Of a DNA stretch of 64,000 nt, positions 19,129-25,699 are shown piece by piece (within the stretch, counting starts at the first letter, position 1; the number at the start of each line of letters is the position of its first letter). The stretch lies in assembly GCF_030406085.1 (NCBI RefSeq), contig NZ_CP129002.1, positions 809,584-873,583 of the forward strand. Direction: 5' to 3'. The translations under genes and the position numbers were made by a program. The stretch is from Bartonella sp. TP. GTDB taxonomy: Bacteria; Pseudomonadota; Alphaproteobacteria; Rhizobiales; Rhizobiaceae. Under the pieces are notes generated by a model that saw only the letters and a program-made list of their open reading frames with translations, searched no databases and was not told the DNA's origin.

Positions 19129-19262
19129 GTTATATACTCCTTTTTAAGCTATAGAGTTTATCCTAGAGCGTGGCTTGTTCTTGTTAACATTTAACTATGC
19201 AAGATGTTCCTGTATTTTAAACTAGGCTAAAGACTAAAGACGTTTGGTATATTGAGGGTTTG

Positions 19263-20093
19263 ATGTTGCGTAGCAAAATAAAAAAGAAATATAAGGTGGC
19301 TGTATGTTTATATGGGCACATGCGCACCTTTAGTCTTTGTGCGCCGTTTTTTAAGCTAAATTTACTGCGTTATTATAATTATGATTTGTTTATTCATACT
19401 TGGTCTAAGCTAGATCATAATACGAAAACTTGGCATAAATATCAGCATTGCTCTGGAGATGTTACAGCAGTAGAAATACATAAAGCCTATGGAGATATCA
19501 ATAAACTTGTAATAGAGGAACAAGGATCAGAAGAGCTAGGTTATACTTGTCGGGTTTCAGATGTAGAAGAAAAAATTTCTGGTTTGATATCTGTAACAGA
19601 AAAAGATATTGAAAAAGTCTTTGTTGATGCTCACCAAGAGTATGGTTTTAGCCTTTTTGGAATGAAGTCGGTAATGCATAGTATGGCAAATGCTATATCT
19701 TTTGCTAGAGATCATGTGAAGCAACAGCAAGTAAATTATGATTATGTCGTTGTAACGCGACCAGATATTTGGCTTAAGGTTCCATTTTTGATAGATTCTA
19801 TCTTAACATCTTTTACTGATGGGGAAATAAAGCAAAATATAATCACAAGCAAGACACATTATGATTTTAAAGAAAATATTTGTGGTATAGATTTATTATT
19901 TTTAGCAAAACCGGAGTTAATTTTTGAATGTATGGAAAATAGGCAATATGTAATTAATCAGCTTTTGACAAAAAGCGCTTTTTTCTATAATCCAGAATCT
20001 GTTTTTTTTCAGATTTTGCGCCATAGCGGTTACGATTGGCGGCCATTACCATTGGTATTTAAAAAGGATTATAATATATTAAGGCCTGTTTGA
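19263..20093 (+). CDS. Glycosyltransferase-like protein of surface polysaccharide loci
   Basis: 276 residues. The N-terminus VAVCLYGHMRTFSLCAPFF and DLFIHTWSKLDHNTKTW, then YDYVVVTRPDIW, match a family found in capsule and LPS loci (for example in Campylobacter), generally listed as putative glycosyltransferase or hypothetical. The TRPD segment could be the acidic metal/nucleotide-binding motif. No signal peptide. The ATG at 19263 is preferred over the TTG at 19260 because GAGGG at 19254 gives acceptable spacing. First gene of the six-gene cassette. Function inferred from family and context only. Confidence 0.65.
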   Translation: MLRSKIKKKYKVAVCLYGHMRTFSLCAPFFKLNLLRYYNYDLFIHTWSKLDHNTKTWHKYQHCSGDVTAVEIHKAYGDINKLVIEEQGSEELGYTCRVSDVEEKISGLISVTEKDIEKVFVDAHQEYGFSLFGMKSVMHSMANAISFARDHVKQQQVNYDYVVVTRPDIWLKVPFLIDSILTSFTDGEIKQNIITSKTHYDFKENICGIDLLFLAKPELIFECMENRQYVINQLLTKSAFFYNPESVFFQILRHSGYDWRPLPLVFKKDYNILRPV

Positions 20094-20139
20094 TTTATGT
20101 ATAAGAAATTTTTGTTTTAACGATATTGTTGGGTTTTTA

Positions 20140-20892
20140 ATGTTAAATATTGTGCTGCCGATGGCTGGCAAAGGAAGTAGATTCGTTAATGCTGGCTATA
20201 TGATACCAAAGCCTCTTATAGAGATACATGGTGTGCCTATGATTAAGCTTGTTATAGATAACCTTACGCCTAAGCGAGAACATCGGTTTATTTTTATAGT
20301 GCAAAGATCTCATTTTGAGGCCTACGAGTTGGATTATAAACTGCATTCTTATGCTAAAAATGTTGAAATTATAGCTATAGACTCTGTAACGCAAGGGCAA
20401 GCTTGTAGTGTATTGTTAGCCAAAGATTTATTTAATACCGATGAACCGTTAATGACGGCCAATAGTGATCAATATATTGATACCGATATAAATGATTATT
20501 TAGAGGATATGGATCAACGTCAGTTAGATGGTTTGATTATGAGTATGTATTCTTGTGATCCAAAATGGTCTTATGCCCGGTTAGATGAAAAGGGATTGGT
20601 TGTAGAAACAGCGGAAAAGCGGGTTATTTCCGATAACGCGACTGTTGGAATTTTTAATTTTAAAAAAGGTAGGGATTTCGTACGTAGTGCTGAGCGCATG
20701 ATTGAAGAAAATTTGCGCGTAGCTGGTGAATTTTATACGTGTCCTGTTTATAATTATCTTATAGACGAGGGCCAGAAAATTGGTATTTATAATATAGGTA
20801 CCGAGTATAATGGTATGTATGGCCTGGGTATACCGCAGGATTTAGAATTTTTTGCCCAGCATGAAATTTCTCGCACTATAGGAAAAAAATAA
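20140..20892 (+). CDS. Sugar-phosphate nucleotidyltransferase-like protein
   Basis: NTP_transferase fold. It has the signature GKGSRF at 10-15, PKPLI at 23-27, and ANSDQYI for the metal-binding Asp. The closest general type is glucose-1-phosphate thymidylyl- or cytidylyltransferase, but at 250 residues it lacks the C-terminal extension of RmlA. It should activate a phosphorylated sugar or polyol. Its stop shares one base with the next ATG (TAATG), so it is coupled to the GDPD-like gene. The exact nucleotide and sugar are unknown. Confidence 0.75.
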   Translation: MLNIVLPMAGKGSRFVNAGYMIPKPLIEIHGVPMIKLVIDNLTPKREHRFIFIVQRSHFEAYELDYKLHSYAKNVEIIAIDSVTQGQACSVLLAKDLFNTDEPLMTANSDQYIDTDINDYLEDMDQRQLDGLIMSMYSCDPKWSYARLDEKGLVVETAEKRVISDNATVGIFNFKKGRDFVRSAERMIEENLRVAGEFYTCPVYNYLIDEGQKIGIYNIGTEYNGMYGLGIPQDLEFFAQHEISRTIGKK

Positions 20893-21515
20893 TGCTTATT
20901 ATTTCACATCGTGGTTGCTGGAGCAATGCAGCAGAGCAAAATACAAGACTTGCTTTTACTCGCTCTTTTGATTTGGGGTTTGGCGTAGAAACAGATTTAC
21001 GCGAGGCCAATGGTAAGCTAGTTATAGCGCATGATTTTGTAAAGGGTAATGAAATGAGCTTTGAAGAGCTTTTGAAGTTACTCGCTGGGCGTAATTTGCC
21101 GCTTGCATTAAATATTAAAGCAGACGGCATGCATGATTTGATAAAAGATTTATTATTAAAATATAATCATGACAATTATTTTACCTTTGATATGTCTATA
21201 CCAGATTTAGTAGTTCAGTTGTGCGCTAATCTAAAGGTTTTTAGTGGTTTATCTGACATTTTGAACCCCGCCCCTTTGCTTGCTAGTTGCTCAGGCGTGT
21301 GGCTGGATTGTTTTAAAACTATTTGGTATAACACCCAGCTAATTGAAGAGATAATAGATAATGGTAAAAAGCTTTGTGTAGTTTCTGCAGAATTACATAA
21401 GAGACCATTGGAACATCAATGGGACTTAATTAAGCGCTGTAAATATTTAAACAGCGATAATTTACTGCTTTGTACGGATTGGCCAGAAAAAGCAAAGGTG
21501 TTTTTTTATGAATAA
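20892..21515 (+). CDS. Glycerophosphodiester phosphodiesterase-like protein
   Basis: TIM-barrel GDPD/PI-PLC-like fold. Catalytic and metal residues are visible as HRG at 6-8, EQNT at 15-18, ETD at 33-35 and HD at 47-48. Length 207 is short for the family (about 240-350). No signal peptide, so cytoplasmic. Coupled to both neighbours (1-bp and 8-bp overlaps). In this setting it may cleave or form a phosphodiester in an activated surface sugar rather than degrade lipids; that is inference. Confidence 0.7.
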   Translation: MLIISHRGCWSNAAEQNTRLAFTRSFDLGFGVETDLREANGKLVIAHDFVKGNEMSFEELLKLLAGRNLPLALNIKADGMHDLIKDLLLKYNHDNYFTFDMSIPDLVVQLCANLKVFSGLSDILNPAPLLASCSGVWLDCFKTIWYNTQLIEEIIDNGKKLCVVSAELHKRPLEHQWDLIKRCKYLNSDNLLLCTDWPEKAKVFFYE

Positions 21516-22143
21516 AATTAAAGCTGTTTTATTTGATATGGATGGTGTATTGATAGATGCTAAAGATTGGCATTATGAGGCTTTGAATAAAGCTTTGTCC
21601 CTGTTTGGTTTTATAATTAGTCGTGATGAACATTTATCTTCTTATGATGGCTTACCAACCTCAACAAAATTAAATAAATTAACCGCTGAAAAGGGTTTGC
21701 CTATAAAATTGCATAATTTTATAAATGAAATGAAGCAACAATACACTGTAGATCTTATACATAAATATTGCCGGCCGAGCTTTAATCATGAATATGCGTT
21801 ATCTAAGTTAAGAGCTGAAAATTATCGTCTTGCCTGTTGCTCCAACTCTATACGTAATACTATAGAAATGATGCTGCGATATGCAAGGCTTGACAAATAT
21901 TTAGAATTTATAATGTCTAACCAAGATGTAGTAAAGCCTAAACCGGATCCTGAAATTTATATAAAAACTATATCGAGAATGCAGCTAAGTCCTAAAGAAT
22001 GCTTGATATTAGAAGATAACGCAAATGGCATAAAGGCAGCTTTAGCTTCTGATGCACATTTGTTAGTAATTCATGATGTTAAGGAAGTAACCTTTGAAAA
22101 TATTAAGCAGAGAATTAAGTTAATTGAAGAGGCGGCTACGTGA
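21508..22143 (+). CDS. HAD-superfamily phosphatase / phosphoglucomutase-like
   Basis: Haloacid dehalogenase fold, beta-phosphoglucomutase-like subfamily (HAD-IA). Motif I is DMDGVLID with nucleophile Asp10 and acid Asp12, motif II is in CCSNS, Lys in KPKPDPEIY, and motif IV LEDNANGIKAA. Length 211. Overlaps the GDPD-like gene by 8 bp and the next gene by 4 bp. Likely dephosphorylates or isomerises the sugar phosphate handled by this cassette. Confidence 0.8.
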   Translation: MNKIKAVLFDMDGVLIDAKDWHYEALNKALSLFGFIISRDEHLSSYDGLPTSTKLNKLTAEKGLPIKLHNFINEMKQQYTVDLIHKYCRPSFNHEYALSKLRAENYRLACCSNSIRNTIEMMLRYARLDKYLEFIMSNQDVVKPKPDPEIYIKTISRMQLSPKECLILEDNANGIKAALASDAHLLVIHDVKEVTFENIKQRIKLIEEAAT

Positions 22144-22868
22144 ATATAGTTTTTTTAATGGGTAACGCCTACAGCACAAAAGATGATTACCCACTATATC
22201 TTACGGAGCTTAGCTCCGCCATATTGCTAGAAAAACAAATAGACATGGCGCGAAAATTGCAGCCAAGGCAATTAATTTTTTGCGTTAATTCTATTGATAT
22301 CGTGCGTTTTCATACAGACGCGGCGATTAAACAATTAGTCCCCGACGCTAAAATTGTACGCATTATGGGCCATACTAAAGGGGCTGTATGTACTGCTCTT
22401 CTAGCCATAGAGCATATTGAGAATGACCAAGAGTTGCTATTGCTGGGAATAGATGATTTTGTGGAAGAAAATACTATAAAGGTATTGGACTATTTTCGCA
22501 AAAATAACTCCGACGCTGGGTTGCTTTCCTTTCGTTCTATTCACCCCCGATATTCTTTTGTTAAATTAAACAAAAATGACGAAGTTATAGAAATAGCTGA
22601 AAAACGACCTATCAGTCAAAACGCTCTAGTTTCTTTTTATTATTATAGCAAAGGATTTGATTTTGTTGAATGTGCTAAAGATATGGTGCGCAAAGATAAT
22701 GCTTTAGATGGTAATTTTTATATTTCGGAGACTATGAATGAGATGCTGCTGCGCCAAAAGAAAATTTCCTTGTATAAAATAAAAAACGAGCAGTTTTACT
22801 CTCTAAAAACGCAAACACAATTAGCAGAATATATTGCGGAGCACAAAGCATCTAAAGGGAGCAGATAA
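22140..22868 (+). CDS. Second nucleotidyltransferase-like protein with degenerate active site
   Basis: 242 residues, GTG start inside the HAD stop (GTGA). It is paralogous to the first nucleotidyltransferase of the cassette: RYSFVKLNKNDEVIEIAEKRPIS aligns with KWSYARLDEKGLVVETAEKRVIS there, and both share the downstream FVECAKDMV/FVRSAERMI pattern. The N-terminal GxGxRF...PKPLI signature is replaced by MGNAYSTKDDYPLYLTEL, so pyrophosphorylase chemistry is doubtful. It may be a partner subunit, a sugar-binding protein, or an enzyme of altered specificity. Confidence 0.6.
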   Translation: MNIVFLMGNAYSTKDDYPLYLTELSSAILLEKQIDMARKLQPRQLIFCVNSIDIVRFHTDAAIKQLVPDAKIVRIMGHTKGAVCTALLAIEHIENDQELLLLGIDDFVEENTIKVLDYFRKNNSDAGLLSFRSIHPRYSFVKLNKNDEVIEIAEKRPISQNALVSFYYYSKGFDFVECAKDMVRKDNALDGNFYISETMNEMLLRQKKISLYKIKNEQFYSLKTQTQLAEYIAEHKASKGSR

Positions 22869-22870
22869 TT

Positions 22871-23206
22871 ATGAAAGTAGCACGCCTGTCAGATATGAAA
22901 GACGGTTGGTTTATTGGCAATTTTGTGCCTTCATTGTATCAAACTACAGATTGCGAAATCGCTGTAAAGACTTATAAAAAAGGGCAGTCTGAGCAAGCGC
23001 ATTATCATAAAATAGCAACAGAACATACAGTTATAATAAATGGCAAAGCTAAGATAAACGGAGCGATTTATCAAGCAGGTGATATAGTGGTTGTTGATCC
23101 TGGGGAACCAACAACTTTTGAATGCTTAGAAGATACTATCACTGTAGTGGTAAAAATCCCTGGTGCGCTGAATGATAAATATGTGCTTAGCCATATAGAG
23201 TTATAA
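22871..23206 (+). CDS. Small cupin-domain protein
   Basis: 111 residues forming one cupin barrel: QAHYHKIATEHTVIINGKAKING carries the His/His/Glu-type metal site, and YQAGDIVVVDPGEPTTFECLED the second cupin motif. Two bp after the previous stop, last gene of the cassette. Such proteins in sugar loci act as isomerases, epimerases or dioxygenase-like proteins. No specific activity can be assigned. Confidence 0.7.
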   Translation: MKVARLSDMKDGWFIGNFVPSLYQTTDCEIAVKTYKKGQSEQAHYHKIATEHTVIINGKAKINGAIYQAGDIVVVDPGEPTTFECLEDTITVVVKIPGALNDKYVLSHIEL

Positions 23207-23542: not shown

Positions 23543-23613
23543 GCGCTATATATAATTTACTTCTTGAAAATTATGTATTAAACTACAGTGTCTTGATAGA
23601 AGAAGGTGTAGTC

Positions 23614-24603
23614 ATGGAAACTTCAGTAGCGGTGCTGGGATGTGGTTATTGGGGCTCGAATCATATAAAAACTTTAAAGGCGCTCGGAAGGTTGGCTGCT
23701 GTAAGCGATATAGATATGGATAAGGCTCGCGCTGTAGGTATCGCTAACGATGCTCCGGCGCTTTCGCCTGCTGAGTTATTCGCTGATACTGCTATTACGG
23801 CGTTAATTTTAGCCCTTCCCCCGCAATTTCATGCTAAAAATGCTATAGAGGCTATTAAGCATGGTAAGGATGTGTTGATCGAAAAGCCTATAGCTCTGGA
23901 TGTAGAGAATGCTGGCAAAATTTTAGAAGTAGCTAAAACAAAAAAGCGTATAGTCATGGTTGGACATGTATTGCGTTTTCATAGTGCTTTTGAGCATATT
24001 ATGCAGCTGGTTGCTGATGGGGAGTTGGGAGAGCTGCGTTATATAAAGACTAGTAGGCTAGGTTTTGGAAAATTCCATAGTACGAGTGATGCATTATGGG
24101 ATTTGGCGCCTCATGATTTGTCTATGATAATGGCCCTAACACGAGGACTAGCCCCTATTAATTTGCAGTTTGGTCAACAAAATATATTAGGAGAGGGAAC
24201 GGACTTTGCAAATTTACTCATGGAGTTTCCTGGCAATATAAAAGCGAATTTATCTGTTTCGCGTTTGACACCATATTGTGAGCGCCGTTTAACTGTAATC
24301 GGTAACAAAGCTATGGCGGTATTTGACGATTTAGAGCCATGGGATAAGAAATTGGCGATATATGAGTATAATGTAGAAAAGCAGGGATTGGTGTGGGCTG
24401 GAGCGCATTCGCAACCGCATTATGCTGCCCTAAATGATACTCTGCCGCTTACTAAAGAACTTTTGCACTTTATGAACTGTGTAGAAACGCGTGAAACGCC
24501 GCGTACAGATGGCAATGAAGCAATAAGGACATTGCGCATATTAGAACAAGCAACGGCGCAACAGACCCATTACAGGAGTTATAATGCAGTTTATAGATCT
24601 TAA
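23614..24603 (+). CDS. Gfo/Idh/MocA oxidoreductase, GnnA/WlbA-like
   Basis: NAD-dependent sugar dehydrogenase, 329 residues. Rossmann motif GCGYWG at 9-14, EKPIA at 90-94, and APHDLS. It overlaps the following DegT aminotransferase by 20 bp. That pairing matches GnnA/GnnB, which oxidise and aminate the 3-OH of UDP-GlcNAc for amide-linked lipid A, as well as WlbA/WlbE-type pairs for surface sugars. The ATG at 23614 is used; the frame runs upstream to a TTG at 23593, but GAAGG lies at proper spacing only for the ATG. Which sugar is oxidised cannot be decided here. Confidence 0.82.
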   Translation: METSVAVLGCGYWGSNHIKTLKALGRLAAVSDIDMDKARAVGIANDAPALSPAELFADTAITALILALPPQFHAKNAIEAIKHGKDVLIEKPIALDVENAGKILEVAKTKKRIVMVGHVLRFHSAFEHIMQLVADGELGELRYIKTSRLGFGKFHSTSDALWDLAPHDLSMIMALTRGLAPINLQFGQQNILGEGTDFANLLMEFPGNIKANLSVSRLTPYCERRLTVIGNKAMAVFDDLEPWDKKLAIYEYNVEKQGLVWAGAHSQPHYAALNDTLPLTKELLHFMNCVETRETPRTDGNEAIRTLRILEQATAQQTHYRSYNAVYRS

Positions 24604-25699
24604 GGCAAACTTAAACATACTCAAAGATAAGATAGATAATGCAGTGCTAGATGTTATAGCTAGCGGTAAATATATACTCGGCCCGCAAGTTCAAGAGTTA
24701 GAGCAGCAATTAGCAAGTTATATAGGAGTAAAACATGCTATATGCTGTGCAAACGGTACCGATGCCCTGCTGATGCCACTGATGGCCCATAAAATAAGCA
24801 AGGGAGATTGTGTATTTTGCCCCAGTTTTACTTTTGCTGCAACTGCTGAGGTTGTGGTGCTTGCTGGGGCACAGCCTGTATTCGTGGATGTAGAGCAAGA
24901 TACCTATAATATAGATATCGCGAGTTTAAAAGAAGCTATATCTATGGTGAAGCGTGAAGGAATTTTGAGGCCTAGGGCAATTATAGCGGTGGATTTGTTT
25001 GGGGTAGCTGCTAATTATCCCCAGTTAGAAGCTATAGCTAAAGAAGAAGGCTTGTTATTGATAGAAGATGCAGCGCAAGCTATTGGTGGCAAAGCATCTG
25101 GTACTATGTGCGGAGCCTTTGGCGATATAGCTTCCACAAGTTTTTATCCTGCTAAGCCTTTGGGCTGCTACGGTGATGGTGGGGCTATGTTTACTAATAA
25201 TGATGAAATGGCAGAAATTTTACGCTCTATCCTTTTTCACGGCAAAGGTAGCTCGCAGTACGATAACGTACGCATAGGGTTGAACTCTAGATTGGATACT
25301 ATACAAGCTGCTATTTTATTACAAAAACTTACAATTTTTGAAGAGGAAATCTTGCAAAGACAGCGAGTTGCCGATTATTATAAGGCAAATTTGCCCAGTT
25401 GTGTAATTACACAAGCTATTTCAAATGATAAGCGTAGCGCGTACGCGCAATATACCGTTAAAGTAGAGCGGCGCGATGAGTTGAAAAACTATTTGGCAGA
25501 ACATGATATACCCGCAATGATTTATTACAATAAACCATTGCATTTGCAGTTAGCCTATAAAAAATATCCCTGTGTTCCTGGGGGGCTACCGGTAACGCTG
25601 GGGCTGTGTGATAATGTGCTAAGTCTGCCGATGCATCCTTATTTACAACAGGAAGATCAAGATAAAATTATCAGCTCTATAGAAAAATTTAATGGCTAA
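24584..25699 (+). CDS. DegT/DnrJ/EryC1 aminotransferase, GnnB/WlbE-like
   Basis: PLP-dependent sugar aminotransferase, 371 residues. The PLP lysine is Lys191 in SFYPAKPLGCYGDGG, and IEDAAQAIGG (160-169) holds the cofactor-binding Asp. CANGTDAL near residues 55-62 binds phosphate. GGAG sits 6 bp before the ATG, which lies inside the upstream oxidoreductase gene. Together the pair would convert a UDP-sugar 3-OH to a 3-amino group. A hairpin terminator follows 5 bp after the stop. Confidence 0.88.
   Translation: MQFIDLKANLNILKDKIDNAVLDVIASGKYILGPQVQELEQQLASYIGVKHAICCANGTDALLMPLMAHKISKGDCVFCPSFTFAATAEVVVLAGAQPVFVDVEQDTYNIDIASLKEAISMVKREGILRPRAIIAVDLFGVAANYPQLEAIAKEEGLLLIEDAAQAIGGKASGTMCGAFGDIASTSFYPAKPLGCYGDGGAMFTNNDEMAEILRSILFHGKGSSQYDNVRIGLNSRLDTIQAAILLQKLTIFEEEILQRQRVADYYKANLPSCVITQAISNDKRSAYAQYTVKVERRDELKNYLAEHDIPAMIYYNKPLHLQLAYKKYPCVPGGLPVTLGLCDNVLSLPMHPYLQQEDQDKIISSIEKFNG

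Follow-up and report, generated by a model that had tools for sequence, protein, structure and literature searches.

We report on a compact cassette of six genes in Bartonella sp. TP, located at positions 19263-23206 of a window of 64,000 nucleotides (the whole stretch of DNA analysed; NZ_CP129002.1, positions 809,584 to 873,583), and on its relatives in other bacteria and in viruses. Comparison of loci encoding relatives of one of its products, a phosphodiesterase-like protein, reveals that five of the six genes constitute a real module, beyond chance adjacency. An earlier note, made from the letters of the window only, had read the cassette as a sugar-activation set with a diverged, degenerate paralogue, linked to a glycosyltransferase and probably directed to the cell surface, and our data support this part of its reading.

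The cassette and its five-gene core

All six genes are intact open reading frames (ORFs) on the forward (+) strand. The first, GT (19263-20093), starts with the ATG at 19263, a TTG at 19260 being also possible, and encodes a DUF7796-family glycosyltransferase with a predicted GT-A fold and a C-terminus shorter than in its homologues. A gap of 46 bp separates it (20093) from NTA (20140-20892), which encodes an intact sugar-phosphate nucleotidyltransferase (PF00483) with the motifs GKGSRF and PKPLI. Then follow, linked to NTA and to each other by overlaps or a 2-bp gap, PDE (20892-21515; overlap 1 bp), a compact phosphodiesterase-like protein of predicted GDPD fold with HRG, ETD and HD motifs; HAD (21508-22143; overlap 8 bp), a HAD_2 phosphatase or mutase of the beta-phosphoglucomutase family with the motif DMDGVLID; NTB (22140-22868; overlap 4 bp), a degenerate nucleotidyltransferase paralogue in which both nucleotidyltransferase signatures are lost; and CUP (22871-23206; gap 2 bp), a small cupin with an HxH...E motif. 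The ORFs, gaps, overlaps and motifs agree with the earlier note, as does the lost active-site signature of NTB. Promoter and terminator scans of the cassette region did no better than on shuffled sequence, and the case for co-transcription therefore rests on the gene overlaps and the conserved gene order.

PDE was searched against plasmids (tblastn) and scanned against 84,980 species genomes, and the loci found were then profile-searched. The plasmid search returned 27 records, and in all six whose surroundings were read the neighbours were alike; the scan returned 312 relatives, the best 80 of which were kept for analysis. Among the 54 bacterial loci in which over 3.5 kb separate PDE from any end of the contig, NTA and HAD were each present in 52, CUP in 51, NTB in 45 and all five in 44. 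The usual order is NTA-PDE-HAD-NTB-CUP, with PDE-HAD-NTB-NTA-CUP in Gastranaerophilales, and dozens of unrelated genomes have the five families side by side. Natural fusions join HAD to CUP (loci L033, L034 and L046), HAD to NTA (L040) and NTB to NTA (L015 and L016). Moreover, the pairwise divergences of NTA, PDE, HAD and CUP correlate with r between 0.45 and 0.81, while 500 permutations gave no value above 0.24; common descent of the hosts contributes to the correlations.

The idea that the cassette is particular to this genome is not supported, since it occurs in approximately ten phyla and, trimmed, in phages. The phyla named include Pseudomonadota, Campylobacterota, Thermodesulfobacteriota, Myxococcota, Melainabacteria, Verrucomicrobiota, Bacteroidota, Spirochaetota, Planctomycetota and one candidate phylum; many of the members are metagenome bins with a risk of contamination, and single assignments should not be pressed. 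Within the family Rhizobiaceae PDE was present in seven of 248 sampled genomes (4 of 109 genera), i.e. the cassette is sporadic in the family; one tblastn match lies on a Rhizobium rhizoryzae plasmid (NZ_CP049248.1:94000-94614). No match was obtained when E. coli genomes were searched at the DNA level with the Pantoea PDE. A tree based on the concatenated proteins places the window in a clade (support 0.996) together with Orbaceae/Gilliamella and a Neisseriaceae bin, and with bins labelled Alphaproteobacteria, Rickettsiales, Holosporales, Helicobacteraceae, Moraxellaceae and Desulfovibrio; its position within this clade has a support of 0.08. Judging from titles and from the groups concerned, several members of the clade look insect-gut associated, and the simplest interpretation is that the cassette has spread horizontally between gut bacteria.

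A large Pseudomonas alcaligenes plasmid of human origin (L012) has the module in the company of WavE genes and of genes for an ABC transporter and a GMC oxidoreductase, and a P. aeruginosa plasmid, also of human origin (hit H3), has its PDE and HAD. A 22.7-kb contig called viral (L098, IMGVR_UViG_2675903395_000004) carries NTA, PDE, HAD, NTB and CUP in that order and may be a host fragment.

Trimmed versions in viruses

A search of viral contigs (IMG/VR) with an NTB alignment gave 511 relatives of the nucleotidyltransferase part, and the following counts refer to the 80 that were kept (contigs L127-L206). A HAD~NTA fusion of approximately 453 amino acids is present on 79 of them, a mini-PDE of 150 amino acids on 58 and a transferase of the GT (19263) family on 17. 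Genes for the HAD~NTA fusion are thus very frequent in viral contigs, and some of them lie near tail-sheath-like structural genes and mini-PDE genes. Parts of the set were also found inside sugar clusters of the named cyanophages S-CAM9, B23, S-SM2 and Bellamy: S-CAM9 and B23 have HAD~NTA, mini-PDE and several transferases of the GT family, and in Bellamy CUP (88 bits) comes directly after NTA, accompanied by one such transferase (85 bits). The PDE query gave no match against GenBank phages. As an independent reduced set, the viral version speaks for a functional core of HAD, NTA, PDE and the transferase, to which NTB and CUP are additions. Each of the six window proteins has matches among the PHROG families, which except for one HAD family are of unknown function, and the pathway discussed below would assign a function to several of these phage protein families.

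A second type of cluster was seen in loci L104-L108 and in two cyanophages (L208 and L209), where a distant PDE (approximately 25-30% identity in L104-L108) lies beside a tandem nucleotidyltransferase of 510-589 amino acids. These clusters also include a class II aldolase, and further a PRK/uridine-kinase domain on a membrane protein or, in the phages, a weakly EcbF-BcbF-like HAD. The logic is the same, i.e. paired nucleotidyltransferases with a PDE and a HAD.

Predicted properties of the proteins and a proposed pathway

NTA scores 39.7 bits against PF00483 (cut-off 21.2), matches PDB entry 4evw (E 1.5e-19) and matches weakly an enzyme of the 6-deoxy-heptose pathway (5xhw, E 0.003). Among its homologues R14 is present in 64 of 68, K24 in all 68 and the metal Asp D110 in 67 of 68. 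At the position that we take to correspond to the second metal Asp of RmlA-type enzymes, 64 of 68 have Gly (Gly228); IspD-type enzymes likewise lack this residue. NTB falls below the PF00483 cut-off (15.9 bits), and the R14 and K24 equivalents are retained in only two and ten of 35 homologues, respectively, while the TxGxxC, EK (Glu-Lys), S144 and N205 equivalents are kept in at least 34 of 35. With the Arg lost in 33, the Lys lost in 25 and the sugar-side positions kept, the alignments mark NTB as a conserved degenerate paralogue, nearly all copies of which have lost the nucleoside triphosphate (NTP)-binding residues but retained the sugar-side motifs.

The PDE model (AF2, pLDDT 96.3) aligns with the GDPD 2pz0 over 193 residues (Z 20.7, root mean square deviation, rmsd, 2.3), and the top rows of the structure search are nearly all GDPD-superfamily proteins. 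H6, R7, E33, D35, H47, N74 and K76 are invariant in 85 sequences. The third metal-ligand position, the Glu of the EIK motif in GDPDs, is Asn74 in all of them, as judged from an alignment by eye of this stretch, which MAFFT misplaced, with three canonical GDPDs. PDE also lacks the GDPD insertion of approximately 30 residues and reaches 14 bits against PF03009, below the Pfam cut-off of 23.6. The model thus predicts a GDPD barrel with an altered metal-ligand position, phosphodiesterase-like in kind. A glycosidase, hinted at by a close match to a beta-1,3(4)-glucanase (7ww4, Z 19.8), was considered but not adopted, since all GDPD catalytic residues except one are kept.

HAD matches HAD_2 with 112 bits, the PGMB-YQAB subfamily with 108.5 (cut-off 153) and TIGR01990 with 86 (cut-off 189). 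Ten residues are invariant in 79 sequences (D10, D12, H22, T51, K54, K76, S112, K145, E169 and D170); the nucleophile and acid-base Asp together with K145, E169 and D170 make up the residue set of the beta-phosphoglucomutase (bPGM) type, and K54 and K76 are two further lysines in the cap region that would suit a phosphorylated sugar as substrate. HAD belongs by its family matches to the beta-phosphoglucomutase group, the residue pattern fitting either a mutase or a phosphatase. In CUP the metal-binding motif G(X)5HXH(X)4E(X)6G is intact and H44, H46, E51 and G58 are invariant in 56 homologues.

The GT product matches PF25072 (DUF7796) with 28.4 bits (cut-off 27), as do 16 of its 17 homologues, none of which matches WavE (PF07507). 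Its AF2 model (pLDDT 80) is best matched by BoGT6a (4ayj, Z 14.3, rmsd 3.1, 191 residues), and the motifs GHxR, HTW and RPD are invariant or nearly so in the family; the model predicts a GT-A-fold transferase. It ends approximately 30-50 residues earlier than most homologues (at 20091-20093), and the whole-genome match to it extends a few residues beyond the TGA. Across loci the commonest neighbours of the module are WavE-family proteins, one WavE cluster occurring in 53 loci and DUF7796 proteins in 17, window included, as counted with a simple ORF caller that missed some genes according to a hidden Markov model scan. Of 137 neighbours sampled, 22 belong to PF07507, the most frequent family, compared to 9 for the next.

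The Bartonella sp. TP genome, the reduced genome of a relative of rhizobia, is a single contig of 1,157,064 bp, 99.99% complete, and outside the window its gene content was probed by protein family. The family search identified LpxA and WaaA, and the O-antigen polymerase/ligase domain Wzy_C gave no genome match above threshold; the core of the lipopolysaccharide (LPS) is therefore a plausible acceptor here. The earlier statement that none of the usual sugar genes adjoin the cassette is partly true, but approximately 390 bp downstream on the same strand (23593-25699), beyond a tRNA-Met gene on the opposite strand, lie genes for a Gfo/Idh/MocA oxidoreductase and a DegT aminotransferase. This pair is possibly GnnA/GnnB-like, for the 2,3-diamino sugar of lipid A; its best NCBIfam match is UDP-GlcNAc 3-dehydrogenase (150 bits, below cut-off). 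The same genome has another glycosyltransferase cluster (GT2, GT28-like, GT4, GT2; L125, 6992-11238), which adjoins a SecDF gene approximately 115 kb from the cassette.

Taken together, we consider it probable that NTA-PDE-HAD-NTB-CUP is one horizontally spread pathway to a single nucleotide-activated sugar, which WavE or DUF7796 transferases put on a surface glycan. Established by the analysis are the module with its order and fusions, the co-variation of divergences, the folds predicted for PDE and GT, and that NTB has lost the NTP site; the steps that go beyond sequence, order and predicted fold we infer as follows. No kinase, dehydrogenase, epimerase or reductase is conserved with the module in the loci profiles or among the 25 commonest neighbour families, and since it lacks a conserved kinase, dehydrogenase or epimerase the pathway probably starts from a common sugar phosphate, on which HAD would place or remove a phosphate to give a sugar-1-phosphate. 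CUP would isomerise or epimerise the sugar and NTA would transfer a nucleoside monophosphate to give the nucleoside diphosphate (NDP)-sugar, with NTB pairing with NTA as an activator or product sensor that does not itself catalyse, as GalF for GalU and GMPPA for GMPPB. The natural NTB-NTA fusions lend indirect support to the NTA-NTB heteromer suggested in the earlier note. PDE, the least certain step, would cut a small cytosolic phosphodiester in the pathway, which could be the NDP-sugar itself or a phosphodiester that is cyclic or mis-made, and would not scavenge glycerophosphodiesters. Finally, the sugar would be transferred by GT, the probable acceptor in this genome being the LPS core. A wider proposal, which we offer tentatively and regard as rather doubtful, is that a GDPD-fold enzyme whose metal site is altered carries out biosynthesis or editing (e.g. 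on a cyclic or ketose phosphodiester intermediate), that a pseudo-nucleotidyltransferase controls its active paralogue, and that marine T4-like phages use the same chemistry to remodel host or virion glycans.

Several observations weigh against the proposed pathway. The GT family occurs in only 17 loci while most loci use WavE, and a distant relation between WavE and DUF7796 is only suggestive, the profiles aligning weakly at the R-x-D region (E 7e-4 in a single comparison, probability 26%). NTB is absent from six loci (L020, L033, L034, L038, L040 and L046) and hence not essential everywhere, a few copies (L013, L014 and L088) retain part of the NTP site, and in L039 and L084 PDE occurs without the module. 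The surface location and the LPS acceptor are also what we infer.

The earlier note had proposed as product an unusual activated phospho-sugar or a polyol with a phosphodiester. HAD phosphatases and cytidylyltransferases do occur in CDP-polyol pathways, and here a GDPD-fold enzyme shares an operon with a nucleotidyltransferase, such that an activated polyol phosphate (CDP-glycerol-like) might be added as a phosphodiester substituent that PDE trims. Yet the cognate transferases are of the GT-A-fold and WavE types and look like ordinary nucleotide-sugar enzymes, which makes this proposal less likely; CDP-polyol phosphotransferase families are absent from the neighbours listed (TagF- and LicD-like proteins are not among the 25 commonest families), PDE has the Asn and lacks the insertion, and the module comes with no conserved reductase or dehydrogenase. 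We therefore judge the polyol unlikely. The fold of PDE, with its catalytic His pair and acidic residues, would also suit scavenging, in which PDE frees the head group of a glycerophosphodiester that is then re-activated and attached, as with phosphocholine in Haemophilus; but there is no conserved kinase for the freed alcohol, the Glu-to-Asn change and the lost insertion disfavour a GlpQ-like substrate, and this appears very improbable.

An explanation that we likewise do not expect to hold treats NTB as a distinct catalyst, a glycosyltransferase or a second nucleotidyltransferase, acting in one of two transfer steps instead of as partner of NTA. The GT-A fold is common to both enzyme classes, PGAP labels NTB 'GT2', and K24 is kept in Gastranaerophilales and R14 with K24 in Ruegeria. 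The loss of R14 in 33 of 35 copies speaks against it, and a paired unit is suggested both by the NTB-NTA fusions and by the tandem nucleotidyltransferases in clusters of the second type. That general surface-sugar genes lie together here by accident or as a loose operon, with no pathway in common, is scarcely credible: some loci lack NTB and the neighbours differ between loci, but the gene order, the fusions, the co-variation and the trimmed set that viral contigs carry independently argue otherwise, and a set conserved across approximately ten phyla and in phages already contradicts it.

The preferred reading, a single activated sugar for the surface, matters because activated-sugar pathways determine how the bacterial surface appears to phages, hosts and immune systems. 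With the set present in approximately ten phyla, in symbionts of bee and termite guts, on Pseudomonas and Rhizobium replicons and, trimmed, on viral contigs, it marks a gap in glycobiology.

Comparison with known systems

The system was proposed to be undescribed, which is apparently so: no paper describing the gene set or its product was found in open-access full text, weak evidence given this scope and the confusion of 'WavE' with the word 'wave'. Two candidates, a paper on the A. baumannii outer core (PMC10327509) and a review of jumbo phages (PMC7824862), matched by words only and were rejected.

The closest sets are the 'LPS/sugar' clusters of the cyanophages S-CAM9, B23, S-SM2 and Bellamy, where a few kb hold either HAD~NTA or NTA and CUP as separate genes, together with mini-PDE and transferases of the GT family. 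They differ in that the HAD~NTA version comes without a separate NTB and the PDE is only approximately 150 amino acids long; S-SM2 and Bellamy have in addition the tandem nucleotidyltransferase, the class II aldolase and the weakly EcbF-BcbF-like HAD. The BcbE/EcbF-BcbF capsule genes of Pasteurella multocida resemble the module in that a nucleotidyltransferase, which we take to be of the BcbE type, adjoins a HAD phosphatase. The HAD of the window is, however, bPGM-like, and TIGR01689 (EcbF-BcbF) is not among the 25 best of 37 families matching it; the only weak TIGR01689 match is the HAD of the second phage cluster. A BcbE-like protein has been reported in a Vibrio capsule cluster (PMC11641403).

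The GDP-heptose pathway (GmhA, HddA, GmhB, HddC) follows the same logic of sugar phosphate, HAD phosphatase and nucleotidyltransferase, but PDE, NTB and the cupin have no counterpart there, and neither the GmhA isomerase nor the HddA (GHMP) kinase is in the conserved module or among the 25 commonest neighbour families. PDE shares with GDPDs of the GlpQ/UgpQ type the barrel and the catalytic His, Glu and Asp residues, while the missing insertion, the Glu-to-Asn exchange and the sub-cut-off Pfam score set it apart. Finally, pairs of a catalytic nucleotidyltransferase and a degenerate regulatory paralogue are known from GalU/GalF, GMPPB/GMPPA and the plant ADP-glucose pyrophosphorylase; the pair in the module differs from these in being small (approximately 245 amino acids), operonic and sometimes fused.

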